Origin: Treponema sp.
GTDB lineage: Bacteria > Spirochaetota > Spirochaetia > Treponematales > Treponemataceae
Reading direction: 5' to 3'
NCBI GenBank assembly: GCA_017963165.1
Contig: JAGCTZ010000166.1
Span: 1-51,141 of the forward strand
Length of the DNA: 51,141 nucleotides
Shown here: one piece after another, positions 13,854 to 42,263 of the stretch
Position numbering within the stretch: the first letter of the stretch is position 1
How the letters are laid out: each line of letters starts with the position of its first letter
The notes under the pieces: generated by a model
Told to the model about the DNA's origin: nothing
Seen by the model: the letters and a program-made list of their open reading frames with translations, nothing else
Databases searched by the model: none
Position numbers and translations under genes: made by a program

Positions 13854-13934
13854 CCCTTCGACAGGCTCAGGGACCACATCCATTCATTGTGGTTCACATG
13901 CTTTCATTGTGGTTCCTGAGCCTGTCGAAGGACC
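13854..13934. repeat. REP-like palindromic element, paired arms (copy 1)
   Basis: The two arms, CCTTCGACAGGCTCAGG at the left and CCTGAGCCTGTCGAAGG at the right, are exact inverted copies, and the complementarity continues into GGGACCAC and GTGGTTCC. Between them CATTGTGGTTC occurs twice (13885-13895, 13905-13915), a 20-bp direct period. It fills most of the asnS-yihY gap and would form a large hairpin in RNA. Confidence 0.85.
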
Positions 13935-13952
13935 ATATTACATGGACTTACA

Positions 13953-15242
13953 ATGAGAAAAAAGGTTGCTGCACCAAAGATTAAGATCAAACTCAAACGT
14001 TCTCAACGACTTACAAAAATTGGACAGATAATTTATCTTACCTGCACAAACTTTGGAAGCAATAATCTTTTGGAAAGCGCTTCGGCTTGTTCCTTTGGTT
14101 TTATTTTTTCATTTGTTCCCCTTGCCCTGATTATTTTTACAGTACTTGTCGGAATAATCAGAGTATCGCCGGGTATTCTGGAATTTGTAAATGCCTTTGG
14201 TGCCGAAATTGAATCTATTGTAGATATCCGACCTTTTATAAACAACATCCTTAACAAAAAGAACTTTCACTTTTTTGATATTTTCTTAGGTGTATGGATT
14301 ATCTGGATGGCCCGAAAAATGTTCCTTTCGATAATCCGTGCAATGGCAATAATTTTTAAAACTGACAAAAAACGCCGTGGCATTCTGAACCAGGCAATGA
14401 TGTTCATTTCCGAATTCATTCTTGTAATTGTAATTGCCGCTATCATAATTTTTATGTTTGGTTTTAATCAGTTAGTATCTGCTAACTACTTTGAACCACT
14501 TCGGGAATATCTTCCAGCAATTGTAAATCAAAATTCTCACACAATCGTTTCTTTTGCAATGTACTTTGTAATTTTTGTTTTCACGTTCTTTGCGTATAGA
14601 GTTTTGTCGAGCACCAAGCCGCCTATGTTCCTTTGCTTTATCTACGGCCTTTTAGATTCGCTTTGTTTCTATTTTATTTCAAACTGGGTTACAAAGTTCA
14701 TGAACCTTACGAATTACAACATTGTCTACGGAACAATCAGCACAATCATTGTTCTTATGATGAAGGTTTATTTCTTTTTTATTTTCTTCCTTTTCTTTGC
14801 CCAGATGATTTATGTTACTCAATATTTTGAGTTATTACTTAAGTGCGAAGTATATCTGCTGCCAGATAGCGAACACCGTGGCTGGATGGTAAAATTACGA
14901 CGCATGCTTTTTATAAACCCTGCTGCCCTCAAAACTGCAACTAACACAAAAACTATTCAACAAGGTGAAGTAATTTTCAACGCCGACGACAAGGCCGACT
15001 CTGTTTACTACATAAGAATTGGTACAATCACAGAACAATTCGAAAATGGTGAAAGTCAGATTTATGAAAAAGGTTCTTTTGTTGGTGACACGTTGTGCCT
15101 TCTTGATGAACGCTTTAGAGGAACAGGAGTTGCCTCTAAAGACTGCAAGCTCATAATTTTTTCTGCGGTAGAATTTAAGGAACTAATGAAAAGTTCTCAA
15201 AAGGCTGCATCAAAAGCTCTGTCTAAACTGGCAGAAATTTAA
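13953..15242 (+). CDS. YihY/RNase BN-like membrane protein fused to a cyclic-nucleotide-binding-type domain
   Basis: A 429-residue protein. The first ~300 residues form a six-helix YihY/virulence-factor-BrkB type membrane domain (formerly labelled ribonuclease BN), with helices near 52-70, 105-125, 145-172, 195-215, 225-245 and 260-285. From about residue 325 a soluble domain begins: IQQGEVIFNADDKADSVYYI, then EKGSFVGDTLCLLDE, matching the beta-barrel of the cNMP-binding/CRP superfamily. The usual phosphate-binding Arg motif is not evident, so it may bind another ligand or none. The start lacks a clear Shine-Dalgarno, and a 4-codon ORF (ATG at 13942) overlaps it. Function unknown; the fusion suggests a regulated membrane protein. 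Confidence 0.8.
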   Translation: MRKKVAAPKIKIKLKRSQRLTKIGQIIYLTCTNFGSNNLLESASACSFGFIFSFVPLALIIFTVLVGIIRVSPGILEFVNAFGAEIESIVDIRPFINNILNKKNFHFFDIFLGVWIIWMARKMFLSIIRAMAIIFKTDKKRRGILNQAMMFISEFILVIVIAAIIIFMFGFNQLVSANYFEPLREYLPAIVNQNSHTIVSFAMYFVIFVFTFFAYRVLSSTKPPMFLCFIYGLLDSLCFYFISNWVTKFMNLTNYNIVYGTISTIIVLMMKVYFFFIFFLFFAQMIYVTQYFELLLKCEVYLLPDSEHRGWMVKLRRMLFINPAALKTATNTKTIQQGEVIFNADDKADSVYYIRIGTITEQFENGESQIYEKGSFVGDTLCLLDERFRGTGVASKDCKLIIFSAVEFKELMKSSQKAASKALSKLAEI

Positions 15243-15296
15243 GCTTCGCTCTTAAAGTAAAAAATATCAACATATGCGAAATTTTCAACTATTTGC

Positions 15297-15325
15297 TTGA
15301 TTATACCTCGTTTTTAAAGTATATT
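15297..15325 (+). promoter_or_regulatory. Promoter of the DEAD-box helicase gene, leaderless layout
   Basis: TTGATT (15297-15302), a 17-bp spacer and TATATT (15320-15325). Only 9 nt separate the -10 from the ATG at 15335 and there is no Shine-Dalgarno. The start of transcription would fall within about 3 nt of the start codon. Confidence 0.55.
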
Positions 15326-15334
15326 GTAATCTCT

Positions 15335-17443
15335 ATGACTGAAGAATTTAACAACGAAACAGAAGAACAGATTATTGAAACTCAGACAGATAATGAAACT
15401 GCTGACGGCATTTTGGAAAATGATGAAACTACGGCCGATACAGATTCAGATGAAATTTCTTTTGAAGATTTAGGACTTGATGAATATGCTCTTGCAGCTG
15501 TAATCAAAAAGGGCTTTGTAACACCCTCACCTATTCAGGTGCTTGCGATTCCACGCCTTTTGAATGGTGATTCAAACCTTATTGCACGGGCACGAACCGG
15601 TACTGGAAAAACTGCCGCTTTTGGTTTGCCAATCATTCAAAATATTCATGATAAATCAGATCACGTAGAAGCACTCATTTTGGAACCAACCCGCGAGCTT
15701 GCAATGCAAACCTGCGAAGAAATGAAATCTTTTACAAGCGAAAAATTTCCACGAACTACTGTACTTTATGGTGGCGCTTCTTATGCCGCTCAGATTCGTG
15801 AACTCAAAGCAGGCTGCGAAATTGTTGTAGGAACACCTGGACGTATTAAAGATCACCTTGAACGCAAAACGCTTGATCTTAGCAAGATTAAATATTTTAT
15901 TCTTGATGAAGGCGACGAAATGCTGGACATGGGCTTTATTGATGATATCCGCGAGATTTTCGAAAAGTCAAATATTGATGCGCGCATTCTTTTATTCAGT
16001 GCTACAATGCCTGCTCCTATCCTTAAAATTGCCGCAGATTTTATGGGCGAATATGACATTATCGAAGAGGAAAATGTTGTTGATGAAGCACTGCTAATTG
16101 ACCAGAAATACTGGTTTGTAAAAGAAAGCGAAAAAACAGAAGCACTTGTCCGCCTGATTGATTCTTCGCCTGATTTTTACGGACTTGTTTTTACAATGAC
16201 AAAAATGGATGCAGACCGCGTTACCCGCGAGCTTGATATGCGAGGTTATGAAGCTGCAGCCTTGCACGGTGACATTATGCAGAACCAGCGAGAAAAGGTT
16301 CTGGAGCGATTCCGTTTAAAGAAGACACGCATTCTTGTTGCAACCGACGTTGCTGCCCGCGGTATTGATATTTCCGGGTTGTCACACGTTGTAAATTATT
16401 CTCTTCCTTTTGATACTGCAACTTATGTTCACAGAATTGGTCGTACCGGCCGCGCTGGAACTACAGGAATTGCAGTTACCTTTGTACGTCCAGAAGAACG
16501 CCGAAAGCTTGGATATTTTATTAAAAATGCAGAACGGGCTACAAAGAAAAAGCTGACAGAAGAAAAAGTGCCGACTGTAAATGAGGTGCTTACACTTAAA
16601 GAACAACGCGTGATGAATGAACTGAAGGAGCGTCTATTTCAGGAGGTCCTTCGACAAGCTCAGGAACCACAAGAATACAATGTTCAGGAACCACAGGAAT
16701 ACAGTGTTCAGGAACCACAAAATGACAATACTCAGGAACCACAAGAAGGTGTACTCCCTGAGCCTGTCGAAGGGCCAGAAGATGTCACAACAACTCCTTC
16801 TTTTGTCCTTCGTCCTATTCCAGAAAAATTCACTTCACTGGCACAGGAAATCTGCAAAGACCAGGAGCCGCAGGCTGTTGTTGCTTCCTTACTTTCTATA
16901 ATGTACGGCGAAAAACTCAGTCCAAAGCATTACGGAAAAATCAGCACAAAAGATATGGGACCTCACGGGGATCAGCTTCGTATATTTGTTTCTCTTGGAA
17001 AAAAAGACGGTTACCGTGCACGCGAACTTGCAGATTACTTTAGTAATCTTCTTCATATTCCGGGCCGCATGGTTGATGACATTGATGTTGCACAGCAGTT
17101 CTCTCTTGTAAGTCTTCCGGCAGCCTCTGCAAAAAAAGCTGTTGAAATGTCACGCAGCAATAAAAAACTTCCACACATGCACATTGACATAAAAGAAGAA
17201 GGCAGCGGTCGCAAACGAAATGCACGCCGCCATGCAGAGGATATTCTACAGGGAGAAAGCAAAAAATCACACAGAAACTCTGACGGACGTTCAAAAAAGC
17301 AGGATGGATTTAAAGAAGAAAAATCTCGTTCGCGAAAATCAAGCAAGCCGAATGTACATAATCAGACGGAACGCTCTTCTTCAAGAAAATCTAATAATGC
17401 AAGTGCATTTGTAAAGAAAGGAAAGAAGGCAGAAAGATTTTAG
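15335..17443 (+). CDS. DEAD-box ATP-dependent RNA helicase with DbpA-type RNA-binding domain
   Basis: RNA helicase of about 702 residues, CsdA/DbpA-like, likely involved in ribosome assembly or RNA unwinding. An acidic N-terminus precedes the core: ARTGTGKTAAFGLP (motif I), PTRELAMQ (Ia), LDEGDEMLDMGF (motif II, DEGD instead of DEAD), SATMP (III) and HRIGRTGRAG (VI). Near the C-terminus GPHGDQLRIFVSLGKKDGY marks a DbpA RNA-binding domain, followed by a Lys/Arg/Ser-rich tail. Between core and RNA-binding domain a REP-like element is inserted in frame (about residues 438-481), giving a repetitive QEPQEY linker. I chose the ATG at 15335; a TTG at 15293 is unlikely because it lies upstream of the promoter. 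Confidence 0.9.
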   Translation: MTEEFNNETEEQIIETQTDNETADGILENDETTADTDSDEISFEDLGLDEYALAAVIKKGFVTPSPIQVLAIPRLLNGDSNLIARARTGTGKTAAFGLPIIQNIHDKSDHVEALILEPTRELAMQTCEEMKSFTSEKFPRTTVLYGGASYAAQIRELKAGCEIVVGTPGRIKDHLERKTLDLSKIKYFILDEGDEMLDMGFIDDIREIFEKSNIDARILLFSATMPAPILKIAADFMGEYDIIEEENVVDEALLIDQKYWFVKESEKTEALVRLIDSSPDFYGLVFTMTKMDADRVTRELDMRGYEAAALHGDIMQNQREKVLERFRLKKTRILVATDVAARGIDISGLSHVVNYSLPFDTATYVHRIGRTGRAGTTGIAVTFVRPEERRKLGYFIKNAERATKKKLTEEKVPTVNEVLTLKEQRVMNELKERLFQEVLRQAQEPQEYNVQEPQEYSVQEPQNDNTQEPQEGVLPEPVEGPEDVTTTPSFVLRPIPEKFTSLAQEICKDQEPQAVVASLLSIMYGEKLSPKHYGKISTKDMGPHGDQLRIFVSLGKKDGYRARELADYFSNLLHIPGRMVDDIDVAQQFSLVSLPAASAKKAVEMSRSNKKLPHMHIDIKEEGSGRKRNARRHAEDILQGESKKSHRNSDGRSKKQDGFKEEKSRSRKSSKPNVHNQTERSSSRKSNNASAFVKKGKKAERF
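16648..16776. repeat. In-frame REP-like element inside the DEAD-box helicase gene (copy 2)
   Basis: Left arm CCTTCGACAAGCTCAGG (16648-16664) and right arm CCTGAGCCTGTCGAAGG are inverted copies. Between them the tail CAGGAACCACA recurs four times with a 24-bp period. The element is translated as a QEPQEYNV-type linker and contains no stop in the reading frame. Confidence 0.88.
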
Positions 17444-17453
17444 AGCAACCAGC

Positions 17454-19039: not shown

Positions 19040-19045
19040 AGCGTA

Positions 19046-19074: not shown

Positions 19075-19128
19075 GATATCTAGTGAATTGATAGGCAAAA
19101 GTTTCTGTTTATGATTCCAGCTCTGATT

Positions 19129-21011: not shown

Positions 21012-21995
21012 ATGGAAGAAATCAGGGATGAAACTACGGAAGAACAATCTTTCAAACCACAGTATCCGGCTGAGCTATACACAAAACGGCCGAATGACAC
21101 TGCTCTTTTAAGTCCAATTTATGATTACACCTTCAAGGGTATTTTTACACAAGATACAGAAGAATCAAATCTTGCACTAAGATGTTTCCTTTCGGCTGTA
21201 CTCAATCGGAAAATATCAAAAGTCACACTTAAACCTAATGAACCAGTTGTAGAAACATCAGAACAAAAGAAAATGATTTTTGATGTAAGCGTAGAATTTG
21301 ATAACGGCGAACTGGCTGATATTGAGATGCAGGCTAGAAGTCAAAATTACAATTATGGTGTTCGCGCAGAAATAATGGCCGCAAGGCTTTTAACAAACAA
21401 TGCAAAACAGGGACAGGACTGGGCAGCTTCAAAAGTATATCAAATTTCAGTTCTTAATTTTCATTACAAAAACAATGACAAGAAAGAAATGCGGTGGTAT
21501 ACTATGTCCGATGATTCAAATGAAAAGCTGGAAGAAAGACTTAATATTATCTTTATTGACCTTGTAACTATACGTAAACTAAAAGATAAACCTGTAAACC
21601 AGCTTACACCATTAGAAAAATGGGGTCTTTTCTTTTCATATGTAGACAAAGAAAATGCGAAAGACTATATAAACAGTATAATAGAATCGGAGCAAGGAAT
21701 TATGGAAGCAGAAAAAATAGTAAAGACAATGAGTGAATCCGATGATAACTGGTTCGTGCAAAATTCTCTTTGGGTTGCAGAAAGAGACCGTACCGCAAGT
21801 CTTGTAAACGCAAAGAAACAAGGACTCGAAGAAGGTATACAACAAGGATTACAACAGGGTATACAACAAAAAGCCGAAGAAGATGCAATAGCATTGCTTA
21901 AAGAAGAAATACCTGTCGAAACCATAGCCAGAAGCGTAAAATTACCAATAGAAGAAATCTTAGAACTTCAGAAATCTTTATCTAAAGAAGCTTAA
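21012..21995 (+). CDS. Rpn/PD-(D/E)XK nuclease-family transposase-like protein
   Basis: A 327-residue protein of the PD-(D/E)XK 'transposase' family related to E. coli Rpn, whose members cut DNA and stimulate recombination. The family opening LLSPIYDYTFKGIF is at about 33-46, and the catalytic core is FDVSVEFDNGELADIEMQA, with Asp91, Glu105 and Gln107 in the D...E-x-Q arrangement normal for this group. Near the C-terminus a short Gly-Leu-Gln-rich coil (EEGIQQGLQQGIQQ) precedes a helical tail. A CAGGAG Shine-Dalgarno fixes the ATG. No terminal repeats flank it, so it is not evidently part of a mobile element now. Such genes are usually multicopy in treponemes. Confidence 0.88.
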   Translation: MEEIRDETTEEQSFKPQYPAELYTKRPNDTALLSPIYDYTFKGIFTQDTEESNLALRCFLSAVLNRKISKVTLKPNEPVVETSEQKKMIFDVSVEFDNGELADIEMQARSQNYNYGVRAEIMAARLLTNNAKQGQDWAASKVYQISVLNFHYKNNDKKEMRWYTMSDDSNEKLEERLNIIFIDLVTIRKLKDKPVNQLTPLEKWGLFFSYVDKENAKDYINSIIESEQGIMEAEKIVKTMSESDDNWFVQNSLWVAERDRTASLVNAKKQGLEEGIQQGLQQGIQQKAEEDAIALLKEEIPVETIARSVKLPIEEILELQKSLSKEA

Positions 21996-22120: not shown

Positions 22121-25100
22121 TTATTGATAAACCTTATTCTGGCAGATACGGAAGCCAACGTCATAAGCTTTGCGAGTTGCAACACAATTATTCAAACGGA
22201 ATGCAATTGTATATGCACTTGAACACCATGCACCACCCTTATAAATAATATTAGAATTAGATCTGTATGATGAATCATAAGTAACAGTGAAATTGGTTGA
22301 AGTAACCGCTGGAACAGAGTTACTTGCCCAATCATTTGTCAATTCCCAAACGTTACCAGACATATCATATATACCTAAAACATTAGAAGTTTTCGTACCG
22401 ACATTTTGAATCGAAGAACAGTTTCCAGAATACCATCCAACATCTCCTAAAGTACTACTACCAGAATAAGTATAATTCCACTTAGTACTATCAGTTATAG
22501 CACTTCCACTAAATGTTTTATAGCCACCACGAGCTGCAAATTCCCACTGATATTCGGTTGGCAAATGATAACCGTTCTTTGAGAAGTCACAAGTTGCATT
22601 ATTCCAATCGGCATTTGAAGATGTTGGAACCTGATCATAAGTAAATGTCGACCAAGAACTGTTTGCAATAGAACCAATTGTATAACATGGTTCAAGTCCA
22701 AGCAAAGCACTAAGTTTATTACAGAAAGCAATTGCATCATACCAGGAAATACTAGTAACTGGAGCATAATTTTTCTGAGTGGTACTTGGATTTATTCCCA
22801 TTACCGTTTCGAATAATTGTTGAGTTACATTGTATTTACCAATAGAATACTTTGTAAGTGTAATAGAATTACCGGCAGTAAAGGAACCATTAGTACTAAT
22901 ATCTTTACCAATCGTTACACTTGATGTAGCAACATTGGCAAGACTGGAATAACTATATGTAGTGCCATTAATAGTAATATTACCACTGGAATTTATATAA
23001 GTATATGTACACGGTGCTCCATAAGTTTCGTTTTGATAATATGAAGCCCATGATGGAGAACCATATTCATTACCCCTTTGTCCGATATATGATCTTCCCT
23101 TTATTGTATAAGAATTACCGCGCGTGTAATTTGGAATGGTTACAACTTTTGTTCCTGTTGTTCCAGCAGAGAAGCTGGTATAACCAACGTATACATCATC
23201 GACAAAGAAGTCTACCGAAACACCAGTACTGCTAGGGGCAGTACAATTTAATGTAACAACACCCATACCATCATCACATTTTAATGTCATGTTTGCTAAT
23301 GGCACAGGCGGCGTCTTGAATGTAACAGTTGTACAGAAAGCTGAAGGATAATCAATACCATAAGAAGAATTATAATAATTTGAAGCTACCCTAAAGTCAT
23401 ATGAAACATTTCTTTCCAAACCAAGACCAGCAAGTGACTTATAATTATAAGAAGAACTTACATATTTTGTTTCCCACGCATCATCCGAATCAGATGACTT
23501 CTTATATTGAACTTTATATTCATTATGAACTCCAGAGGCATGTGTCCATGTAAGCATTACATCTCCATTATAAGCATGTGCAACAAGATTTGTAACCGTA
23601 TTTAATGTTGGAGTTGTAATATTAGTTATTTCACTTGATTTTGAAGATTCATAAACACTTGAACCTGTACTATAACCAACAGGGACAGCTGTTAAATATG
23701 CTTTATAAACAACGCCAGATTCCAAATTTGAGAGCGTATATGATGTTGTACCACCAGCCAAAGTTATTGGACCAGAATATGATGAAGCTGAACTCTTCTT
23801 ATAGTACAAGAAATAGCCATCATATATTCCAGAAGAAGGTTTTGTTATAGTATATTTTATACTGTTTTCTGTTCTACTACTATAGGTAAGAGTTGGAGCA
23901 GCTGGTCTCGTATAGAAGAAGCCATCAGAACTACTATAACTAGTTAAGTTTGTTTTTATAGGAGTTGTTACATCTGTAAATCCACTCTTAGAAACAACAA
24001 TTCGTGCATTATAACGGTTGCCAGGTGTTAAATCACTAATCGTATAAGTTTTTGTGGCATTTGGAGTCAATATTGACGATTCAAATGTAGCATAAGTTGT
24101 CCAGTTAGAACCACTATCTAATTTGTACTGTAATTTTAATGTATATGAGCCGGCAGGATTAACCCAGCTACAAGTCATAGAAGTAGGAGTTATATCACTT
24201 GGTGTAGTAATAAAATTACTTGCAGGCTGTAAAGTTGTTGTTACAGAGAATATATTAGAGTAATCAGAATAAATAATATTATCATTTGTAGTTCTGATTG
24301 CATACCTATAAGTAGTACCCGGTGTCATATCAGAGAAATAATATTGAGAAGTAGAATGATCAGTAATTGTTCCTATATAAGTAGTAGTAGAGTTTGTAGC
24401 AGTTGTTGCAGAAGCAGAAACAGAATACAATCGGACATCGTTCCAATAACTTGTATCAGATGGATTTGTCCAATAAACATAGAAGTTCTTGTATGGCATA
24501 GGATTGTATGTAGTTGCACCGACATTTGAAACAGCTGCAGGTTTTGTTCTTACGGTACCAACACTTAAAGATGCTGTTTTTTCTTCACCACTTACAGTTT
24601 TATATGTTTGAATAGAATAGGTATATTGATGATTTGGTAAAACAGTTTTATCTTCCCAAGAATATGAAGCATTAGCCGTTTTTTGAGTCGTAGAAGTGTA
24701 TACAGGATCTGTCTGGTCACTACGGTAAATTCTAATTCCATCTACTGACATATTAGGATTTACCCAAGATACAGTTACCTGTGTAGCAGAATTTACGGTT
24801 ACACTACGACTGGCAACAGGGTCAATTGCAAGAGAACAACAGATTACATCTGAGTAGCCATATTGAACTTGTGGTGTAGCTGCAGAGTTAGAAACAATTG
24901 TTGTAATCTTAAAATAATAAGTTAAACCTGCTCCAACTTCATATTGTTTTTCGGTAGTAGTATCATTGTACTCGAAAGTTTGTGAAACCGTGCCTGTAAA
25001 ATTTTCATTTGTACTACGCACAAGCATTATTCTGGCATAATTACCTTCTGGTTTTGTCCAGTAAACACGAACATGACTACTATCTTCTTTCACAACTCTA

Positions 25101-31100: not shown

Positions 31101-32533
31101 TTTGCAAGAGCATACCCCTTTGATGAATCATAACCATAATTTGCTTCTGTACCCTCTTCGTAATCAATACTTAAATTGATATTTTCAATCTGATTTACAG
31201 GATATACAACTGTTTTTTCTACACCATCTTCATCTGTAAAGGTACGTGAAAATTCCCAGCCGCAGAAGGTGTAATCTGCTTTTGGTGTGTATTTTAATGT
31301 GATGAGTTTTCCAACACTATAAGAAAGCTTTTGACCAGTCTGCAAAACGTCATCAACCTTTAACGAACCGGCGTTATCATCTTCAAGAGTAAAGCGGATT
31401 TCGGCTTTGTTAAGGGTTTCGGAATTTACGGTGTATGATTTGATTTCTTCTGAATCGAGATAAATTTTGTATGGCTCAGAATAATCATTGTTAATATAAT
31501 AAATTGTATTTGCAGGAATGATTACATTAACTTTAAGACTCTTGCCCTGCTCTACAGGAATAAGTCCGCCATTTTCTTCTGAATCTGTATTTGGAAGAAT
31601 ACTGATTTTGTCGCGTCTTTCGTTAAGAACCGGGCGCTGGAAGTAAATACTTGTGTATAAGTCTGGCTCTGAAGGTTCTTCTGGTTCAGGCTCTGGTTCT
31701 TCGGTTTCTTCAGGATCTTCTGTTGTTTCCGGATCTTCTGTGTCATCAGGATTAATCAGTTCTGTTTCAGAAGGATTTTCCTGTTCTCCATCATCATCGT
31801 CGACATCAACATCAACTGTAGTTTCTGTACCTTCGGAATCGGGATTTTCTGTTTCACCACCATTTTCATTATTTGTGATTGTATCATCCAAAGGCTCTGT
31901 AGAATCAATATTTCCGATTTCGTCAGCATCAAGGGAAATATCAGGAGCAACAAGCACAACATCGTCAGGCAGCTTTGGTATTTCTACTGTAATTTTATTT
32001 ATACCATCTGCGGCAATAGGCTTGTTAAATGAAAGTTCAATAGATTTATTTCGTTCGTATTCTTTTTCGCTGTCGTCAAGATTGAAATTAACAGTAAGTT
32101 TTTCCGGACAAACAGGACGAATTATAATAGAAGAACTTGCCTTTTTAAAAGTAACCTTTGTTTCAAGACTTTCGGCATCTTCAAATTCAATATAATCGCT
32201 GACTCTTTCGCCGGCTTTCATATTTCTTACAACAGCTTCCCACTTGATAAATTTGTGGTCGCTCTTTGGTTCAAATTTTACGGTAAAAACGTCGGTAACC
32301 TTTTTCTGGATTTCGCCGTTTGCAGGGATTTTTATGCTTCCCCCGTCAAGCGCATCTACCTGAATTGAATATGACGGGGCATTATTATAATCAATAGCCT
32401 TGGTGATTTCGTTTTTTATGTCTTCGCCTTTAAGGAAGTTTTCGCAACTTGTAAAAGAAAAGATAAGTGATATTGCCATAAAAACTACAGCAAAAACATT
32501 GGACTGATGAAAAGCAACACGTCTTTTATTCAT
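22121..32533 (-). CDS. Giant surface lipoprotein with repeats, fibronectin III-like array and C-terminal FGE-sulfatase-type domain
   Basis: A 3470-residue exported lipoprotein. The signal ends FTSC (Cys30). Several domains follow in order. An N-terminal beta domain comes first, then an acidic Pro/Glu/Thr-rich spacer (about 215-295). Next is a set of ~240-residue repeats with anchors near 495, 739, 981 and 1222, each pairing an Ig-like module (NLDDVEKIYERDSEIKFTF) with an InlB-like module (YTPKANYTFCGWEI). After a middle beta-rich part comes a run of fibronectin type III-like modules (about 2200-3150). Residues ~3225-3470 form a formylglycine-generating-enzyme/SUMF1-type fold: HLPTEYQWEFAARGG, YDMSGNVWELTNDW, YKGGAWCSS and VGFRICQ. 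It probably projects from the outer surface for adhesion or binding; enzymatic activity is not evident. It has its own promoter and terminator. Confidence 0.9.
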   Translation of the reverse strand: MNKRRVAFHQSNVFAVVFMAISLIFSFTSCENFLKGEDIKNEITKAIDYNNAPSYSIQVDALDGGSIKIPANGEIQKKVTDVFTVKFEPKSDHKFIKWEAVVRNMKAGERVSDYIEFEDAESLETKVTFKKASSSIIIRPVCPEKLTVNFNLDDSEKEYERNKSIELSFNKPIAADGINKITVEIPKLPDDVVLVAPDISLDADEIGNIDSTEPLDDTITNNENGGETENPDSEGTETTVDVDVDDDDGEQENPSETELINPDDTEDPETTEDPEETEEPEPEPEEPSEPDLYTSIYFQRPVLNERRDKISILPNTDSEENGGLIPVEQGKSLKVNVIIPANTIYYINNDYSEPYKIYLDSEEIKSYTVNSETLNKAEIRFTLEDDNAGSLKVDDVLQTGQKLSYSVGKLITLKYTPKADYTFCGWEFSRTFTDEDGVEKTVVYPVNQIENINLSIDYEEGTEANYGYDSSKGYALAKVTVMDSIDGVIKIQPLCYQSLSVSKFSLDDPGKIYACDSEIKLTFNKNIAAECAREISLIIPGVEGASSYYKEASLNKNVVTLTPDLSKGYIPVPQNATRTVTVTIPANKIYYTTSDGNIKVYITSDISYTYTINSETANKTKIEYVVSDSNGILKVDDSSRDNQSVEYSVGKTVSLKYTPKSGYTFCCWNVTRTYKGTDGKDKTDTIALTEAALAAINLTKTVEDGADANGYDSSKGYAQLQLTVNNSISGTVKIQPLCYESLTVTDFNLNDVETIYERDSEIKFTFKQNVFVQDSNNVTIKIPGIEGAGTYFKAATINGKVFTITPNLSKGYIPVAQNATRTVTVTIPAGKVYYRTENNTKIYNSSDITYTYTINSETVNKTAIEYVISDTNGVLKVDDATRDNQRVNYSVGKTISLKYTPKANYTFCGWEITRSYTGANGAAATDTIALTEEALAEINLSAAVETGADANGYDASKGYAQLQLTVNNSISGTVKIQPLCYESLLLTDFNLDDVEKIYERDSEIKFTFKQDVVAQDSNNVTIKIPGIEGAGTYFKAATINGKVFTISPNLSKGYIPVAQNATRTVTVTIPAGKIYYLTDDNTKIYNSSDITYTYTINSETVNKTTIEYVISDTNGVLKVDDATRDNQRVNYSVGKTISLKYTPKANFTFCGWEITRTYTNTSGATVTDSIALTEDALAAINLSATVETGADSNGFDASKGYAQLQLTVNNSIAGTVKIQPLCYESLAVSSFNLDDAETIYERDNDVKFTFNKSIASEDLSQISIKVLGISGAENYFANPSITNNILTIASSGYIPVTQNATRTVTVTIPAGNIYYTITDKNVKVKNSSDIVYTYTIDSETIKKTKIKAFVDDNYTSAGQLRVNNEAPDDRAVEYSVGKTIILKYRLALSEDYTFNGWSITKTSGTGGTQTTTFANNDFTAENLETFNLGLDYEDITDPSQITLTVNSPIDGELSIKPVIAPIQKTKIKFLVDDDYSYTGEFKIDGIVATGSEQEIRPGKSVNLRFRLTNEDYYFKGWSVKYKETPEDTDYVTYSQNTFTTDNLETIGLSVAYDDNEASYGYESVTKLAQATITVDEYFDKTLEVSPVIVPIPAAYVTIDGSNGKFSPAIGTYRIKEKIFDSLTFEPDGGYEFLRWQIYDAETGEEFNNADYITIKDLKAERTSFAVVRVPDAPTNEDETEIKLTIRPVLTERPQVFSYSPMYQAEGALKDSSIQVMFDYNMDEESIYYTDAELDTLIETLGMNEDDYAPETSPNKLLSFMKGGRRRYYGYTDENGTYFKNISIKNNKDEANLNRYFIEPSFDTPRTLTIKTNPSNPLPAYTQVVVTIDGDFFYLKDNKKISMNGSKKWVYQVSNRTDSESPEILDVDENNNPLQNPFKLSGITRHGGEWEEWLVNPENTRTRPTVALSTGGMSNFTFIQRNDNQVLINLEGTIVDGDGGMASTFTLKYRHLYTAGYQAANDYDTIYSYVVDYASVMGLSANLPSNIDISGLQGNGGLYEMWFEFKDLSGHTITYPPTASGQTTPTQKYYLAFESTAPSVKNLLVSDAGKEKNLDITWQEADYNWGIDLYKMFVRYHADNSLVYEALPEINLTQLSSTQITNRLCSLTNLDSSQHYSIDVVIEDYAGNQRTYNLDDFTTPSIPADVILPSEGPFEDSFTLEYELADLKYNETRVYYREKDSDDEWTLLTNDEIDGYLYCDIDGLNYGAQYEFEVRTYVEYGTDENDDVIAKESPAYKVSGALPVYYTRPLAVYPYLLESYDPTTIRCRYYTPNSAFTGIKILYSLNPQFKNAETKAEYDALYGPDSENYNENTYDPNYVQETWSASIDDAPSGINAYGIWYQDYLKQGTEYYIKYISYYLSEDNYTETSGNVGYTKTASVTNLACSAVTNSSFTATWAKPAGNYSCYIIQYKESTASSYGSEIIIDDKDATSYTVEGLDAGKSYNFSICAQVGDDSVRRSSFVSNSSPWLILPNPVTDFRVVKEDSSHVRVYWTKPEGNYARIMLVRSTNENFTGTVSQTFEYNDTTTEKQYEVGAGLTYYFKITTIVSNSAATPQVQYGYSDVICCSLAIDPVASRSVTVNSATQVTVSWVNPNMSVDGIRIYRSDQTDPVYTSTTQKTANASYSWEDKTVLPNHQYTYSIQTYKTVSGEEKTASLSVGTVRTKPAAVSNVGATTYNPMPYKNFYVYWTNPSDTSYWNDVRLYSVSASATTATNSTTTYIGTITDHSTSQYYFSDMTPGTTYRYAIRTTNDNIIYSDYSNIFSVTTTLQPASNFITTPSDITPTSMTCSWVNPAGSYTLKLQYKLDSGSNWTTYATFESSILTPNATKTYTISDLTPGNRYNARIVVSKSGFTDVTTPIKTNLTSYSSSDGFFYTRPAAPTLTYSSRTENSIKYTITKPSSGIYDGYFLYYKKSSASSYSGPITLAGGTTSYTLSNLESGVVYKAYLTAVPVGYSTGSSVYESSKSSEITNITTPTLNTVTNLVAHAYNGDVMLTWTHASGVHNEYKVQYKKSSDSDDAWETKYVSSSYNYKSLAGLGLERNVSYDFRVASNYYNSSYGIDYPSAFCTTVTFKTPPVPLANMTLKCDDGMGVVTLNCTAPSSTGVSVDFFVDDVYVGYTSFSAGTTGTKVVTIPNYTRGNSYTIKGRSYIGQRGNEYGSPSWASYYQNETYGAPCTYTYINSSGNITINGTTYSYSSLANVATSSVTIGKDISTNGSFTAGNSITLTKYSIGKYNVTQQLFETVMGINPSTTQKNYAPVTSISWYDAIAFCNKLSALLGLEPCYTIGSIANSSWSTFTYDQVPTSSNADWNNATCDFSKNGYHLPTEYQWEFAARGGYKTFSGSAITDSTKWNYTYSGSSTLGDVGWYSGNCSSIQNVGTKTSNVLGIYDMSGNVWELTNDWASNSVPAVTSTNFTVTYDSSYRSNSNIIYKGGAWCSSAYTIAFRLNNCVATRKAYDVGFRICQNKVYQ
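28780..31400 (-). repeat. ~725-bp intragenic repeats in the giant lipoprotein gene
   Basis: The anchor encoding SLxxQPLCYESL-type sequence (plus strand AACAAAGCGGCTGGATTTTT or close variant) lies at about 28865, 29588, 30314 and 31047, a period near 725 bp (about 241 codons). The two central units (about 29100-30560) are the most alike, with long identical DNA runs, so they are prone to recombination and copy-number change. Confidence 0.8.
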
Positions 32534-33555: not shown

Positions 33556-35034
33556 TTATACACTAAAAAAATCTACTGCATTCTTATAGCAGATGTTTTT
33601 TACAAGTGCGCCAAGCGCTTCTTCCTGCCATGGGAATTCGCCCTGCTCTACCTGATTACCTATAAAATTACAAAGTATTCTGCGGAAATATTCATGCCTT
33701 GGATATGAAAGGAAGCTTCGGCTGTCGGTAAGCATTCCTACATAACGGCCAAGTGTCGAAGTTCTGGCATAAACGCGAATCTGTTCTTCTATTCCATCTT
33801 TGTGATCATTAAACCACCAGGCAGGTCCAAACTGACAGTTACGGAAATTAGCAGCCATTGTTGCAAGAGCTTCGTTGTCTTTTGGATTAAGATTATAAAG
33901 AATAACACGTGGAGAATTTTGCGGTCCCTGAGCTGTTTGCGGTCCCTGAGCCTGTCGAAGGGCGGCAGAATAAATTCCATCCAGCACAGCGGCAATTTGT
34001 GGTGCAAAATTAAAATCATTAAGGCTGTCTTCGCCAATATTTTTTCCTGCCTGATTGAACATTGCTGTGTTGTTGTCGCGCAGTGCACCAATATGGATTT
34101 GCATTACAAAGCCTTTCTGTGCATAAAGCTTTCCAAGCTCTGTAAGAACCCAGCCCTTATATTTTGCAATATCTTCGGGCTTGAGTTTTTTACCAATCCA
34201 GGCTTTTTCAAAAATGTAGTTTACATCGTCGTAATTTGTCGGAAGATAAAAATCACTTTCCAGAGAATGATCACTTACAACAGAGTCGTTCTGTTTAAAA
34301 TAATCCATACGGCGGCCAAGTGCTGCAATCATATCATTTATTGTTTTGAATTTTGTGCCATCAATTTCCTGCAGACGGCTTATATATTCCGGGAATGCCG
34401 GATTTTCAGGCGAAAGAGGAATGTCAGGCCGGAACGATGGTCGAACAGTTATTTTTTTGGTTCCTGAGCTGTTTGGGGTCCCTGAGCTGTTTGGGGTCCC
34501 TGAGCCTGTCGAAGGGCCACCTTCTGCCAACTTCTTATGCCATTCAAGACTATCCAGCGGATCATCAGTCGTACACAACTCGCGGACATTCATTTTTTTA
34601 AGAAGTCCCTGCGGCGCAAAATCAGGCTGAGCAAGCAGCGCATTACATTTATCCCAAACTTCGCGGGCATTTGCTTCGGTTACAGGTTCTGTAATTCCAA
34701 AGTATCGGGCAAGTTCCAAATGACTCCAGTGATAAAGAGGATTTCCTACGCAAAGCTGAAGTGTGCGGACAAAGGCAAGATAGCGGGAATAATCGTCCCC
34801 ATGACCTGTAATCAAATCTTCGGGGATACCTGCGGCACGCATTGCACGCCATTTGTAGTGGTCATGATCAAGCCAGGCATTTGCAAGATTACCAAGCGGC
34901 TTATTTTCATAAATCTCCTGTGGAATCAGATGATTATGAAAATCAAAAATCGGTTCATTTTCTGCATATTTATGGAATAAAATCTGAGCAGGTTCGCTCT
35001 GTAAAAGAAAATCTTTATCAAGGAATTTTTTCAT
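33556..35034 (-). CDS. uxaC: Glucuronate/galacturonate isomerase UxaC
   Basis: Uronate isomerase that converts D-glucuronate to D-fructuronate and D-galacturonate to D-tagaturonate, the entry step to KDG. The start MKKFLDKDFLLQSEPAQILFHKYA and the metal-site FDFHNHLIP are characteristic, with GWVLTELGKLYAQKGFVMQIHIGALRDNN and the C-terminal YVGMLTDSRSFLSYPRHEYFRRI. At 492 residues it is longer than E. coli UxaC (470). Most of the excess is two in-frame REP-like inserts: residues ~173-192 (GPSTGSGTPNSSGT...) and ~358-372 (LRQAQGPQTAQGPQN). A GAGG Shine-Dalgarno lies before the ATG, and the promoter overlaps a palindromic operator shared with eda/kdgK. Confidence 0.94.
   Translation of the reverse strand: MKKFLDKDFLLQSEPAQILFHKYAENEPIFDFHNHLIPQEIYENKPLGNLANAWLDHDHYKWRAMRAAGIPEDLITGHGDDYSRYLAFVRTLQLCVGNPLYHWSHLELARYFGITEPVTEANAREVWDKCNALLAQPDFAPQGLLKKMNVRELCTTDDPLDSLEWHKKLAEGGPSTGSGTPNSSGTPNSSGTKKITVRPSFRPDIPLSPENPAFPEYISRLQEIDGTKFKTINDMIAALGRRMDYFKQNDSVVSDHSLESDFYLPTNYDDVNYIFEKAWIGKKLKPEDIAKYKGWVLTELGKLYAQKGFVMQIHIGALRDNNTAMFNQAGKNIGEDSLNDFNFAPQIAAVLDGIYSAALRQAQGPQTAQGPQNSPRVILYNLNPKDNEALATMAANFRNCQFGPAWWFNDHKDGIEEQIRVYARTSTLGRYVGMLTDSRSFLSYPRHEYFRRILCNFIGNQVEQGEFPWQEEALGALVKNICYKNAVDFFSV
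33919..33962. repeat. In-frame REP-like element in uxaC, downstream site (copy 3)
   Basis: On the minus strand the core CCTTCGACAGGCTCAGG is followed by a tail CTCAGGGACCGCAAACAG repeated with an 18-bp period. It is read in the frame giving LRQAQGPQ. Only one arm of the palindrome is present. Confidence 0.85.
34459..34518. repeat. In-frame REP-like element in uxaC, upstream site (copy 4)
   Basis: On the minus strand the core CCTTCGACAGGCTCAGG is followed by CTCAGGGACCCCAAACAG units with an 18-bp period, about three copies. It is read in a different frame from copy 3, giving GPSTGSGTPNSSGT, so the same DNA yields different peptides at the two uxaC sites. Confidence 0.85.
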
Positions 35035-35047
35035 TTCTTACCTCGAG

Positions 35048-35080
35048 TACTAGTATATCACAATAAGTGAATTCTGTCAT
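35048..35080 (-). promoter_or_regulatory. uxaC promoter with overlapping TACTAGTA operator
   Basis: On the minus strand: ATGACA (-35, 35075-35080), a 17-bp spacer and TATACT (-10, 35052-35057). The -10 is part of ATATACTAGTA, whose central TACTAGTA is a perfect palindrome. The same 11-mer overlaps the eda -10, so one repressor could control both. Confidence 0.6.
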
Positions 35081-36348
35081 TTAGAGATAAGCTTTCGATT
35101 CCTCATTGAGATAAGCTTTCGATTCCTCATTGCAAAAGCGGCAATTACAACTCCGACGGCACAAACAATTGTTCCTGTCAAAAGCATCTGTTTAATTCCA
35201 AGATTATCAAGAATAACACCGCTTATAAGATTAGAAAAAACTCCGCCAATAGTAATTGCACTTGTTATATATGCCTGACCTTTTACCTGATCAAGTTCTT
35301 CCATATTTTGACTTACATAATAAGCAGCAGCCGGAATAAAAATTGCATACGCAAAAAGTTGAATTGATTGACTGAAATAGAAGACAGCCATATTTCCAGC
35401 AACAAGCATAATAAGGATTTTTACAAAAAAAGCGCCGCCCGAAAAAACCAGCAGATTACGGGAAGAAATCTTTTTAAGCACAAAACCAATAAGAGCCATA
35501 ACAGGAAGCTCTAAAATTGCCTGAAGGAAATTAGAATACCCCAGTTCCTTTTCGCCGCCGCCAAGTCCCCTTATAATTTGAATCATAAAATCATTTATCA
35601 TATTATGGGCAAAGAAAAAGCATATTGTTCCGACAAGGAAAAGCATAAACGCAGGATAGGTGCGCGCAAAATCAGAAATTTTGTTATGTGCAACGGCCTG
35701 ATTTTTATTTTCCATAGCTTCTGTAGTTTTTGAAGCTCCTGCGTCAGCTTTTGGGATTGTTCCCTCTTGCGGCACAGGTTCAGTTGCAGGTTTCTTAAAA
35801 GTAAAAATCACAACTGCCGACAAAAACATCACTATTATGTTTACTACAAGAAGAACATTCACTCCCCTTTTTTCTACAAAGCCGCCTATAAAAGCAGAAG
35901 TAAACGCAAAGCTTGCAGAACCAAGACCACGTGCAAGTCCATAATAAATCGGGCAACCAGCTTTCTGATATTCAAAGCAAAGCGCAGTCATTACCGGTTG
36001 ATACGTAAACTGAATCATATAGATAAGCGCGTAAACAATAAAAATCAGAACCTTGCTTTGATTAAAAAACAAAAGCAGCAGCGAGCCAGCAAGAATTATT
36101 AAAACAGAAATTAAAATAAAACGTCTATTTGTAAGCGGACCAGGTTTATCAATTATGCCTGCAATAAACGGCTGGAACACTGCAGAAATAATATTTGCCA
36201 CTGCAAGCAATATTCCAACCTGAGTATTTGTAAAACCATTTGCAAGCAGATATACCGCCGCATAAGCATGAACGGTACAAAAGGCTGCAAAATAAGTTGC
36301 ATTTATAAGAGTATAACGCAATGTCCACGAAAAGCTTTTGCTGTTCAT
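35077..36348 (-). CDS. MFS sugar transporter (LacY/PPP-type oligosaccharide symporter family)
   Basis: A 423-residue inner-membrane protein with about 12 hydrophobic helices in two halves, separated by a charged cytoplasmic loop rich in Glu, Lys and Ala near residues 190-225. The start SWTLRYTLINATYFAAFCTVHAYAAVYLLANGFTNTQVG fits the LacY/phenylpropionate-type MFS group. Context (beta-helix enzyme upstream, uxaC downstream) suggests uptake of a uronate or uronate-containing oligosaccharide. The start lies 9 nt after the beta-helix gene, with an AAGGGA Shine-Dalgarno. The last 16 residues are a duplicated MRNRKLIS octapeptide encoded by a perfect 24-bp tandem repeat. Confidence 0.82.
   Translation of the reverse strand: MNSKSFSWTLRYTLINATYFAAFCTVHAYAAVYLLANGFTNTQVGILLAVANIISAVFQPFIAGIIDKPGPLTNRRFILISVLIILAGSLLLLFFNQSKVLIFIVYALIYMIQFTYQPVMTALCFEYQKAGCPIYYGLARGLGSASFAFTSAFIGGFVEKRGVNVLLVVNIIVMFLSAVVIFTFKKPATEPVPQEGTIPKADAGASKTTEAMENKNQAVAHNKISDFARTYPAFMLFLVGTICFFFAHNMINDFMIQIIRGLGGGEKELGYSNFLQAILELPVMALIGFVLKKISSRNLLVFSGGAFFVKILIMLVAGNMAVFYFSQSIQLFAYAIFIPAAAYYVSQNMEELDQVKGQAYITSAITIGGVFSNLISGVILDNLGIKQMLLTGTIVCAVGVVIAAFAMRNRKLISMRNRKLISK
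35084..35131. repeat. Perfect 24-bp tandem duplication at the 3' end of the MFS gene
   Basis: 35084-35107 and 35108-35131 are identical. The unit encodes the octapeptide MRNRKLIS in frame, so the gene ends with this peptide twice before its stop codon. It looks like a recent slippage event. Confidence 0.9.
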
Positions 36349-38424: not shown

Positions 38425-38541
38425 AAAAAAATCCTCCAATTATTATAGACATTATAAACACAGATTTTTCTCTAATGTTGAAATTTTATCTATAATAATA
38501 GGAGGAATTTATATTAGAGTACCCTGCGTTCTTTTGTTCCG

Positions 38542-38590
38542 GCCCTTCGACAAGCTCAGGGACCCCATGCAACGCAGGGACCCCATGCGG
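38542..38590. repeat. REP-like element downstream of purA (copy 5)
   Basis: Core CCTTCGACAAGCTCAGG, followed by a tail CAGGGACCCCATGC that recurs with an 18-bp period. An additional ACCCTGCGTT/AACGCAGGG inverted pair (38521-38530, 38571-38579) brackets part of it. It lies between purA (stop at 38605) and the promoter region of the beta-helix gene. Confidence 0.78.
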
Positions 38591-38604
38591 CTCATGGTCT
38601 CTTC

Positions 38605-39831: not shown

Positions 39832-39870
39832 GTTATTTTTCCTCCGCGGATTTCAAAAAATCGCACGCAT

Positions 39871-39900
39871 ATTATACAGTAAGTCCAATTCAAAATTCAA
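39871..39900 (-). promoter_or_regulatory. purA promoter inside the queD 3' end
   Basis: On the minus strand: TTGAAT (39895-39900), an 18-bp spacer and TATAAT (39871-39876). The -35 overlaps the last codons and stop region of queD. A leader of about 30 nt leads to the Shine-Dalgarno GGAGGA and the ATG at 39831. Confidence 0.6.
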
Positions 39901-40294
39901 TAGAATATCTTGCTCTGGAAGTTTCTGTTTCGAAGACATCAACACAATAAAGATATGGTGAGTCGCTGTCTTTTTGATAAGTTAAATCAATTCCTTCTTT
40001 TTTAAGCACAGAAACAATGCCGTCAAAAATATACATGGCAATGCGCTCGGCACTTGGATTCTGGTCAAAAACCTGCATATCATTTAAGTTAGTGTGATCT
40101 AACTGCTTGCAGACTTCACGCAAGGCGCCTTTTAGCTTTGAAAAATCAATAAGCATTCCGCCTTCGTTTAGTTTGTTTCCCCTAACATGCGCATATACCT
40201 TATAATTATGACCGTGCAGATTTTCGCACTTTCCGTTGTAATCTCTTAAAAAATGAGCGGCCGCAAAATCGGCAGTAACACGAACTTCAAACAT
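39890..40294 (-). CDS. queD: 6-carboxy-5,6,7,8-tetrahydropterin synthase QueD (PTPS family)
   Basis: PTPS/QueD-family enzyme of 134 residues in the queuosine (preQ0) pathway. Zinc ligands are His14 (AAAHFL), His27 and His29 (NLHGH); catalytic Cys23 lies in GKCENLHGH, the CxxxHGH form typical of QueD. LDHTNLND and the C-terminal VFETETSRARY complete the family pattern. I chose the ATG at 40294 because MFEVRVTADFAAAHFL is the family N-terminus; an upstream in-frame start gives an unlikely 17-residue extension. TATAGT ends 6 nt before this ATG and there is no Shine-Dalgarno, so it is probably leaderless. Other queuosine genes are not in the window. Confidence 0.9.
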   Translation of the reverse strand: MFEVRVTADFAAAHFLRDYNGKCENLHGHNYKVYAHVRGNKLNEGGMLIDFSKLKGALREVCKQLDHTNLNDMQVFDQNPSAERIAMYIFDGIVSVLKKEGIDLTYQKDSDSPYLYCVDVFETETSRARYSIEF

Positions 40295-40300
40295 GTAGTA

Positions 40301-40329
40301 ACTATAACATGTTTTAGAAATTATAGCAA
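40301..40329 (-). promoter_or_regulatory. queD promoter, leaderless layout
   Basis: On the minus strand: TTGCTA (40324-40329), 17 bp, TATAGT (40301-40306), 6 nt, ATG at 40294. A second TATAAT on the same strand partly overlaps the -35. No Shine-Dalgarno is present. Confidence 0.55.
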
Positions 40330-40332
40330 AGC

Positions 40333-40412
40333 GCCCTTCGATCAATCGACAGGAGGCCCTTCGACAGGAGGCCCTTTAACAGGTAGCCCTTCGACAGGCT
40401 CAGGGATCCCAA
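40333..40412. repeat. REP-like element with amplified head between queD and murE (copy 6)
   Basis: Here it is the head of the element that is repeated: GCCCTTCGACAGGAG-type units of about 15 bp occur three times with variants, ending in the full core CCTTCGACAGGCTCAGG (40389-40405). It lies between divergent promoters. Confidence 0.78.
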
Positions 40413-40469
40413 ACTTTCTCTCATAAATTGAATTGTTCTATATCACTTTTATATTTTTGCGCAAACAGT

Positions 40470-40475
40470 TATAAT
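40470..40475 (+). promoter_or_regulatory. -10 box of murE, leaderless layout
   Basis: A perfect TATAAT ends 6 nt before the murE ATG at 40482. No good -35 is found at 16-18 bp and there is no Shine-Dalgarno. Confidence 0.45.
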
Positions 40476-40481
40476 ATAAGA

Positions 40482-42263
40482 ATGAAAAAACTTCTTTCAC
40501 AAATTCTGCCGGCTTTTAAAAATACTATAACAGCTGTAGACGGCACAATAATCGACGATTTATCAGAAATCAATAATATTCCAATTTCCAACCTTGTTTT
40601 TGATTCCCGCGAAGCAACAAAGGATTCACTTTATTTTGCTTTACCGGGCACTCACACAGATGGAAATAATTTTATAGAACAGGCAATTCTTGCAGGCGCA
40701 AATGCAGTAGTTTATCAGGGAAAGCTTACACCTTCGCAGCAGCAGGATGTTGCAGAAGCAATAATCAAACGAACAATGAACAATGCGCTTTCTGATGACA
40801 CTCCAAAGTTTGCACCGGTGCTTATAAATGTACCGGACGCACGTTTTGCAATGGCTCCCCTTTCTGCACGCTTTTACGACAATCCAAGTGAACGGCTTAT
40901 TGTAATAGGCGTTACAGGTACAGAAGGAAAATCAAGCACCGTAAGCTTTATATGGCAGTTGCTCCGTGCCTGTGGAGAAAAAGCAGGTTTTATAAGCACA
41001 GTAGAATATTCTTTTGGTGGCGACGCGCTTCCAAATCCACAGCATCAGACAACACCAGAAGCTCCAATCATTCAGCATCACTTAAACGAAATGCTCGAAA
41101 ATCAATGTAAATATGCAGTTGTCGAAACATCTTCTCATGGACTTTCAACAAAGCTCAACCGCTGCGGAAACATCCTTTTTGATTGCGGCGTATTTATGAA
41201 CGTTACGCTGGAGCATCTTGAATTTCATAAAAACTTTGAAACCTACAGAAGCGATAAAGCAAATCTGTTCCGCGCCCTTGATAAACATAATCACATAAAA
41301 ACAATTGCAGGCGAAAAACAGAAAATCAATTCTATTGGAATAGTAAATCTGGAAGACCCTTCTGCAGAATATTTTATTCAGGCAACAAAGCACAATGTTT
41401 ACGGTTTTACAACGGAAGGAAAAGCTGGAAAAGCAGCAGCCGAAACAGGCGGAAATGCAACTCCGCTTCCACCAATTCCAGACAATCTTCGTTATATGAC
41501 TGCAAGAAACATTGCTTCGGCAACTTACGGACTTACATTTGATGTAGATGCAGACGGCACTACTGCTGTTTATCCAGAAAATTATGATCCTGTACAGCCA
41601 AGAGACAAAAGTCATTTTAGTGTAAGAGCCTCGCTCCCGGGCGCCTTTAATGCTTACAATCTTATGGCAGCAGTTACAGCAGTAAGCAGCGTTACAGGAT
41701 TAACATTCGAAGAAGTTGCTTCAAAGATTCCAGAGCTTACTCCAATCAAAGGACGAATGACAGTAATTGATGAAGGCCAGCCTTTTGAAGTAATTGTTGA
41801 TTATGCTCACACCCCTTCGAGCTTTGAAACAATTTTCCCGCCAATCCGCAAGCGTTGCAATGGAAGAATTTTTGCATTGTTTGGAAGCGGCGGCGAACGA
41901 GACCTTACAAAGCGTCCGCTCCAGGGACAGATTGCAGCAAAGTTTTGTGATGTAGTTGTTCTTGCAGACGAAGACCCTCGTGGAGAAGATCCGGTAGAAC
42001 TGCTAAAAATGATTGCAGCCGGTGCCGAAAAAGAAGATAAGGTCATGGGTGAAAATCTGTTTATAATTCACGATAGACCTCAGGCAATTCGCGAAACTTT
42101 TAAAATGGCTCAAAAAGGCGACATTGTTCTGCTTTTAGGCAAATCGCACGAAAACAGCATAATATACAAAGATTATACAATGCCTTATGATGAAATTAGT
42201 GAAGCAAAAAAAGCATTAAAAGAAATGGCCCTTAGACAGGCTCAGGGACCACAAGGGGAATAA
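40482..42263 (+). CDS. murE: UDP-N-acetylmuramyl-tripeptide synthetase MurE
   Basis: Mur ligase that adds the third amino acid to UDP-MurNAc-L-Ala-D-Glu in peptidoglycan synthesis. The 593-residue protein shows the ATP loop VTGTEGKSST, the NPQHQTTPEAP segment, and YAVVETSSHGLSTKL...FMNVTLEHLEFH. The substrate-specificity motif is DEDPR, against DNPR in meso-DAP enzymes; treponemal peptidoglycan is known to contain L-ornithine, which would fit a changed motif, but this is inference. It is about 100 residues longer than E. coli MurE, with an insertion near EGKAGKAAAETGG. The last codons (ALRQAQGPQGE) come from a REP-like element. ddl starts 1 nt after the stop. Confidence 0.92.
   Translation: MKKLLSQILPAFKNTITAVDGTIIDDLSEINNIPISNLVFDSREATKDSLYFALPGTHTDGNNFIEQAILAGANAVVYQGKLTPSQQQDVAEAIIKRTMNNALSDDTPKFAPVLINVPDARFAMAPLSARFYDNPSERLIVIGVTGTEGKSSTVSFIWQLLRACGEKAGFISTVEYSFGGDALPNPQHQTTPEAPIIQHHLNEMLENQCKYAVVETSSHGLSTKLNRCGNILFDCGVFMNVTLEHLEFHKNFETYRSDKANLFRALDKHNHIKTIAGEKQKINSIGIVNLEDPSAEYFIQATKHNVYGFTTEGKAGKAAAETGGNATPLPPIPDNLRYMTARNIASATYGLTFDVDADGTTAVYPENYDPVQPRDKSHFSVRASLPGAFNAYNLMAAVTAVSSVTGLTFEEVASKIPELTPIKGRMTVIDEGQPFEVIVDYAHTPSSFETIFPPIRKRCNGRIFALFGSGGERDLTKRPLQGQIAAKFCDVVVLADEDPRGEDPVELLKMIAAGAEKEDKVMGENLFIIHDRPQAIRETFKMAQKGDIVLLLGKSHENSIIYKDYTMPYDEISEAKKALKEMALRQAQGPQGE
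42229..42257. repeat. REP-like element forming the murE 3' end (copy 7)
   Basis: CCCTTAGACAGGCTCAGG and its GGACCAC continuation are read as LRQAQGPQ at the end of MurE. The AAGGGGA that follows directly serves as the Shine-Dalgarno of ddl. One arm only, no tail amplification. Confidence 0.8.

Follow-up and report, generated by a model that had tools for sequence, protein, structure and literature searches.

A REP-like element family scattered through some gut and rumen Treponema genomes, often in frame within protein genes, with local tandem duplication in a minority of copies

The contig JAGCTZ010000166.1 of Treponema sp. (assembly GCA_017963165.1), whose whole length of 51,141 nucleotides is referred to here as the window, contains nine copies of the short core sequence CCTTCGACAGGCTCAGG. 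The core defines an element family which is scattered through some gut and rumen Treponema genomes and often lies in frame within ordinary protein genes. Tandem repeats adjoin some of the copies; this amplification is genuine but amounts to a local duplication affecting a minority of copies, filtered by reading frame and with edges near the centre of the predicted hairpin, rather than a programme specific for the tail of the element. The nine matches (≤3 mismatches), located at seven loci, compare with a mean of 0.02 and a maximum of 1 in 100 dinucleotide shuffles, so that the shared core reported for seven loci in an initial annotation of the window is borne out. The copies start at 13855 (+), 13915 (-), 16648 (+), 16757 (-), 33945 (-), 34499 (-), 38544 (+), 40388 (+), and 42230 (+), with A replacing G at 16648 and 38544, and another single mismatch at 42230. 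The initial annotation, which did not recognise the inverted pairs 13855/13915 and 16648/16757, their tails facing inward, is partly confirmed in its observations and partly supported in its interpretation: its notion of a multi-copy family resembling repetitive extragenic palindromes (REPs), entering coding sequence in frame and carrying locus-specific tandem tails, is upheld.

Genome-wide copy counts were obtained from relatives of the window, not from its own genome. A scan with the glucuronate isomerase UxaC, which is encoded in the window, comprised 80 loci, the best-ranked of which are from Treponema, T. bryantii among them. Allowing ≤1 mismatch, the core occurs 230, 176, 91, 211, and 82 times in the five relatives G001, G002, G003, G004, and G005, respectively, and 0–10 times in eleven other genomes, while the same pattern read backward, used as a control, gave 0 in every genome listed. 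With 82–230 copies in these five relatives, the family shows the high copy number of a generic REP. Exact cores are present in 59 of 200 Treponema genomes and missing from the other 141; 16 of the 200, termed core-rich in the following, hold 15–206 copies. In this survey, too, the backward pattern was absent from every genome listed. Core-rich genomes occupy at least two places of the UxaC tree, in which G003 (locus L017) falls into a mostly copy-poor clade (support 0.97), apart from G001, G002, G004, and G005; support for the placement of the window is weak (0.45). Beyond Treponema, 92 of the 345 genomes sampled from the class to which genome G202 belongs contain the exact core. The breadth of the distribution is limited by its absence from all 19 searched genomes of other UxaC loci. 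Plasmid records matched in 44 cases at E ≤10, 40 of them at ≥99% identity (Sphingobium, Moraxella, Microbacterium, and others); the 30 matches listed comprise exact stretches of 19–24 nt with E-values of 3e-3 to 6. A 23-nt form of the element is also present, without mismatch, in seven contigs of a viral collection (L255–L261), one of which, L256, contains three whole copies in tandem with a period of 23 bp.

The stretches sampled for closer analysis were chosen because they hold listed copies, and they do not represent a random genome sample. For 183 copies from the window, G001, G002, G003, and G129, the consensus spans about 26 bp, GGC-CCTTCGACARGCTCAGG-GACC[C/A/G]C[A/G]; copies of G004 were added afterwards, resulting in 252 sampled copies. 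The predicted hairpin is weak, its stem having segments of 4 and 2 bp separated by a bulged A, and its loop 11 nt. Its outer stem pair (-1/+17, just outside the core) is complementary in 93% of the copies, as compared to 75% expected (z 6.4), indicating covariation; beyond this pair, nothing strong was detected (next z 2.8). Neighbouring copies ≤200 bp apart are mostly arranged as +- (36 cases, versus 4 -+, 3 ++, and 6 --), and 72 of the 252 copies belong to such +- pairs, the spacers of which are locus-specific and vary from 14 to 169 nt. A folding energy of -35.4 kcal/mol (z -12.6) was predicted for one inverted pair. The window gave no Rfam match at gathering scores, and strings of the core motif were not found in the open-access texts searched, matches to shorter strings being unrelated as judged by title. 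At L165:9880, the core is placed where a longer hairpin, ATTGTCGGG...CGACAAT, has its loop; similar copies occur in G001, G002, and G003, and at one such site relatives carry the plain form without the core.

Gene status was assigned by a greedy call of open reading frames (ORFs), which spans 94% of the sequence and is likely to overestimate the coding share. According to this call, 159 of the 252 copies lie within ORFs, 134 being internal, 15 near C-termini, and 10 near N-termini; another 4 are at gene edges and 89 are intergenic. Intergenic and edge copies (93/252) are in excess of the roughly 6% of noncoding DNA in the called sequence, but at 93 of 252 the family as a whole does not qualify as “extragenic” in the sense of a generic REP. 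In-frame insertion into ORFs, as is characteristic of Rickettsia palindromic elements (RPEs), is evident from the 134 internal copies. The initial annotation had pointed out that five of the six reading frames of the core are open, and all five are indeed used (PEPVEG in 62 copies, LRQAQG in 28, PSTGSG in 27, SLSLSKG in 11, and FDKLR in 6), the sixth, TGA-containing frame occurring in 0 of 134. Among the 120 UxaC homologues listed (7998 were scored), 19 contain a peptide of the element, always in the same three loops. The nearest of the listed homologues, 87% identical, carries the element in opposite orientation in loop 2 and lacks such a peptide in loop 3.

After omission of one copy with short flanks, tandem repeats were found to touch 75 of 251 copies (30%); 50 of these lie in coding sequence (of 159 there) and 25 between genes (of 92), as compared to 2.5 and 0.4, respectively, with shuffled flanks. 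The amplified part is the tail in 43 of these copies, the head in 16, and the whole element or another part in 16. Amplification of the tail is not supported as a constant property of the family, amplification of the tail only was rejected, and tails are not tandem at most loci. The bias of coding copies toward lengths divisible by three, on which the initial annotation made its model depend, was borne out. Removal of redundancy left 65 arrays, 42 coding and 23 intergenic; periods are divisible by three in 39 of the 42 coding arrays (the exceptions being 16, 20, and 37), versus 12 of the 23 intergenic ones, which range from 8 to 24 (Fisher p 2.7e-4). Since the bias exists in coding but not in intergenic arrays, it is a coding filter; a factor of three inherent to the element was rejected, because intergenic periods do not follow the rule. 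The left array edge is situated at core offset 10–13 in 31 of the 65 arrays, the dyad centre being at offset 8, and head arrays end at offset 7–8, on the other side of the dyad centre, in 12. Breaks between repeat units hence lie preferentially close to the hairpin centre, and the copied part may be the tail, the head, or the entire element. L287 shows repeats of the head as well as of the tail; it is a locus from the class of G202.

Unit number also varies between close species. In ten comparisons of orthologous elements of G001 and G002, five differ: one by exactly one 18-bp unit, with flanks 97–99% identical, one by 21 bp, one by 66 bp, one by an 18-bp array gap plus an upstream change, while another is reversed and has a different tail. 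We think it possible, though clearly short of an even chance, that such arrays reflect ordinary minisatellite slippage in loops and spacers which were variable already, the element itself having no special duplication property. Tandem repeats are indeed part of the background, being present at 210 of 5000 sites chosen at random from the sampled stretches (4.2%), 70% of them with multiples of three, and UxaC loops differ in length also among genomes without the element. However, arrays are seven-fold enriched at the element over these random sites, a control not matched for loop variability, and array edges cluster near the hairpin centre.

Taken together, we favour, with somewhat better than even confidence, the view that the copies represent one REP-like element which reached high copy number and was kept where genes tolerate it, with arrays arising by local duplication and with dispersal that is probably independent of a resident REP-associated tyrosine transposase (RAYT). 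The element, occurring singly, as tails-inward inverted pairs, or with local tandem arrays, would have risen to high copy number in some Treponema; at loops, linkers, and termini, selection would retain copies that preserve the frame and would limit tandem changes to multiples of three. A local duplication with one edge near the dyad centre may copy the 5' arm, the 3' arm together with the locus-specific tail, or the whole element, presumably through hairpin-provoked slippage (at the apex) or template switching during replication or repair. Several points weigh against this interpretation. No array accompanies 176 of the 251 copies, and element length is equal in five of the ten comparisons of G001 and G002. 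In the palindromy test, the outer pair covaries, but the predicted fold of a single copy is not superior to that of shuffled sequences, which makes a process driven by the hairpin less than evident where the element stands alone. The clustering of array edges was judged against a uniform expectation and not against element-free loops of similar variability, and junctions were compared by eye between species rather than strains. Moreover, the genomes are mostly draft metagenome-assembled genomes of unstated completeness, and a RAYT could therefore be missing from single assemblies. The family also illustrates how a short repeat introduces length variation, filtered by reading frame, into loops of UxaC and other housekeeping enzymes; an abundant, largely intragenic family whose presence and unit number vary between close species, and which shows a breakpoint preference, offers a testable case.

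A RAYT, named in the initial annotation as a candidate for moving the element, did not emerge from the searches. Neither the Y1_Tnp nor the RAYT model matched in G001–G005. Y1_Tnp was detected in 61 of the 200 Treponema genomes, but in only two of the 16 core-rich ones (135 and 139 aa, which is not RAYT length) versus 59 of the other 184 (p 0.16), indicating no positive link and no significant avoidance. Relaxing the threshold to E ≤10 in the 16 core-rich genomes added only matches with E 0.01 or worse, none of RAYT length; a weak Y1 match in G106 (E 0.41, 242-aa frame) was dismissed, as it overlaps a HD/GAF gene. The sequences flanking 66 Y1_Tnp loci, representing 61 distinct genes, contain no core (≤3 mismatches). 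In the class of G202, Y1_Tnp occurs at similar frequency in core-rich (18/20) and core-free (15/20) genomes and thus is not discriminating. These data lend no support to a RAYT or another Y1 transposase as the resident mover. The window also harbours, at 21012–21995, a gene for a PDDEXK_2 (Rpn-type) nuclease, which is found in all 16 core-rich genomes; since it is present in 180 of the 200 Treponema genomes, it does not discriminate either, and was rejected as a mover.

That a classical REP or REPIN family was moved by a RAYT which was lost, acts in trans, or escaped the assemblies nevertheless appears conceivable to us, albeit rather improbable. The predominance of inverted doublets (36 of 49 close pairs), the imperfect hairpin with one covarying pair, and the high, uneven copy number would suit a REPIN-like history, and Y1_Tnp is present in the genus as well as in the other class with the core (33 of 40 tested genomes). 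Against it stand, besides the search results for the core-rich genomes and the flanks of Y1 genes, the variable locus-specific spacers and the lack of a conserved GTAG tag.

Orthologous sites give some indication of how copies may be gained. With flanks ≥86% identical, the element is present in 31 comparisons and absent in 11, sites seen both ways being counted twice; for G001 versus G002 at close flanks the figures are 18 and 8, and under looser flank criteria 102 and 51. Differences at empty sites frequently extend beyond the element itself, and filled sites carry additional or substituted bases. A target duplication, as would be expected of a miniature inverted-repeat transposable element (MITE), was not evident by eye in an informal check of the 11 empty-site alignments. 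Extra or replaced bases and the lack of a visible duplication fit a repair-coupled, templated insertion of hairpin DNA, or else a mover that acts in trans or has meanwhile disappeared; dispersal is probably not due to a resident RAYT. At 13 of 50 distinct empty orthologous sites, hairpins of the CGTC type occur, as compared to 0.55 expected; the expectation is based on mean density, and as these hairpins seem to be mostly intergenic, the true excess is smaller. Such hairpins, exemplified by TGTCATTGTCGGGCTTGACCCGACAAT, were noticed in the stretches L147–L254 (G001–G004, and one in G129); there are 10 in 193 kb of copy-poor loci, 1 in 90 kb of G129 stretches, and none in the window. Being present in copy-poor loci and nearly absent from G129, their abundance does not track that of the CCTTCGACAGGCTCAGG family. 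Tentatively, and with a good deal of doubt, one may go further and imagine a third, untagged REP superfamily of distant phyla without a transposase of its own, in which hairpin DNA would be copied into breaks in the course of repair, would duplicate from its apex, and would steadily supply in-frame loop extensions, the CGTC-type hairpins using the same route and sites.

That the copies are retained for a benefit to the cell, whether as linkers in proteins or as hairpins in RNA, seems very unlikely. The preference for the PEPVEG frame and the intergenic excess could be read in its favour, but the element appears in five frames, in both orientations, and in unrelated genes, the element is reversed or missing at the same UxaC loop in relatives, close relatives have empty sites, and the fold of a single copy is weak. 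Chance matches or an assembly artefact, for which nothing speaks beyond the use of draft assemblies, can practically be dismissed in view of the shuffle result, the empty backward control, and orthologous copies common to separate genomes.

Within the window, the element is found in the following contexts. The intergenic inverted pair at 13855..13931 consists of cores at 13855–13871 (+) and 13915–13931 (-), and its orthologous site in relatives is either empty or occupied by CGTC-type hairpins. Of the five tail repeats described initially, the one at this locus, a 20-bp tandem repeat at 13875–13915, turned out to lie in the pair spacer and does not start with CAGGGACC; the other four are valid, with units of 24, 18, 18, and 18 bp. 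The inverted pair at 16648..16773, comprising cores at 16648–16664 (+) and 16757–16773 (-) and a 24-bp tail array at 16660–16747, is inserted in the gene of a DEAD-box helicase with DbpA RNA-binding domain (15293..17443, +), where it reads VLRQAQEPQEYN...PEPVEG. The uxaC gene (33556..35034, -) hosts two copies on the same strand: in loop 3 (33918..33961), the core at 33945–33961 with an 18-bp tail array (~33918–33951) reads ALRQAQGPQTAQGPQ, and in loop 2 (34459..34515), the core at 34499–34515 with an 18-bp tail array (34459–34505) reads PSTGSGTPNSSGTPNSSG. Multiple-of-three units are thus correct for the helicase and both uxaC sites; they are not confined to coding loci of the window, because the 18-bp tail array (~38557–38588) of the element at 38544..38588 (+; core 38544–38560) is intergenic according to the ORF list. 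The intergenic element at 40346..40404 (+) has its core at 40388–40404, preceded by a 15-bp head array at 40346–40398, in agreement with the claim that the head is repeated instead of the tail at one locus. A single core with one mismatch at 42230..42246 (+) lies at the 3' terminus of an ORF for a Mur ligase (40428–42263) and reads ALRQAQGPQGE-stop.

Other repeats of the window are unrelated to the core, namely a 24-bp tandem repeat at 35077–35132, at the end of an ORF for a major facilitator superfamily transporter, and a 23-bp tandem repeat at 44028–44084, which precedes a 2221-aa ORF (44158–50823) that contains a 429-bp tandem repeat and hardly matches any Pfam family. A 3470-aa ORF at 22121–32533 comprises fn3 and FGE-sulfatase domains and repeats of ~726 bp.

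Among known systems, REPs are the closest. In those parts of Di Nocera et al. (2013; PMC3733652) on which we rely, most REPs are described as GTAG-tagged or CGTC-tagged; GTAG-tagged REPs are linked to RAYTs, CGTC-tagged REPs apparently lack a dedicated transposase, and intragenic copies occur in both classes. Like GTAG-tagged REPs, the CCTTCGACAGGCTCAGG family can form short hairpins and is present as singlets, dimers, and clusters, some of them intragenic; unlike those with RAYTs, it has no conserved GTAG (GTAG or CTAC beside the core in ≤6 of 252 copies per side and strand), and no Y1 gene of RAYT length was found in the 16 core-rich genomes, whose assemblies may be incomplete, nor any core beside the 61 distinct Y1 genes. 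It resembles the CGTC-tagged REPs, including RPE-4 and RPE-6 of Rickettsia, which are described as short palindromes of several phyla (Spirochaetes are named), often arranged as inverted dimers, sometimes intragenic, and with no dedicated transposase reported; for the present element, no link to a Y1 transposase emerged. In contrast, their stem of 8–9 bp and loop of 4–5 nt differ from the 4+2 bp and 11 nt of the present element, in which the CGTC tag is not conserved either (CGTC or GACG in ≤5 of 252 copies per side and strand); TGTC does not appear in the consensus flanks. With its 36 +- pairs, the family shares with REPINs, in the account taken from PMC3116915, inverted doublets that can fold into a long hairpin; it differs from them by variable, locus-specific spacers, many singlets, a location mostly within called ORFs, and the lack of a detected RAYT. 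RPEs, as far as covered by the material used from PMC10969869, likewise insert in frame and leave unrelated genes open; with ~150 bp and a conserved peptide they are distinct from an element of ~26 bp that is read in five frames and gives five peptides. Sharing pairs, intragenic copies, and breadth with these systems, but deviating from both tags and from the stem and loop of CGTC-tagged REPs, the CCTTCGACAGGCTCAGG family, set against the portions of these papers cited here, is a new untagged, transposase-orphan form of the REP/RPE kind.

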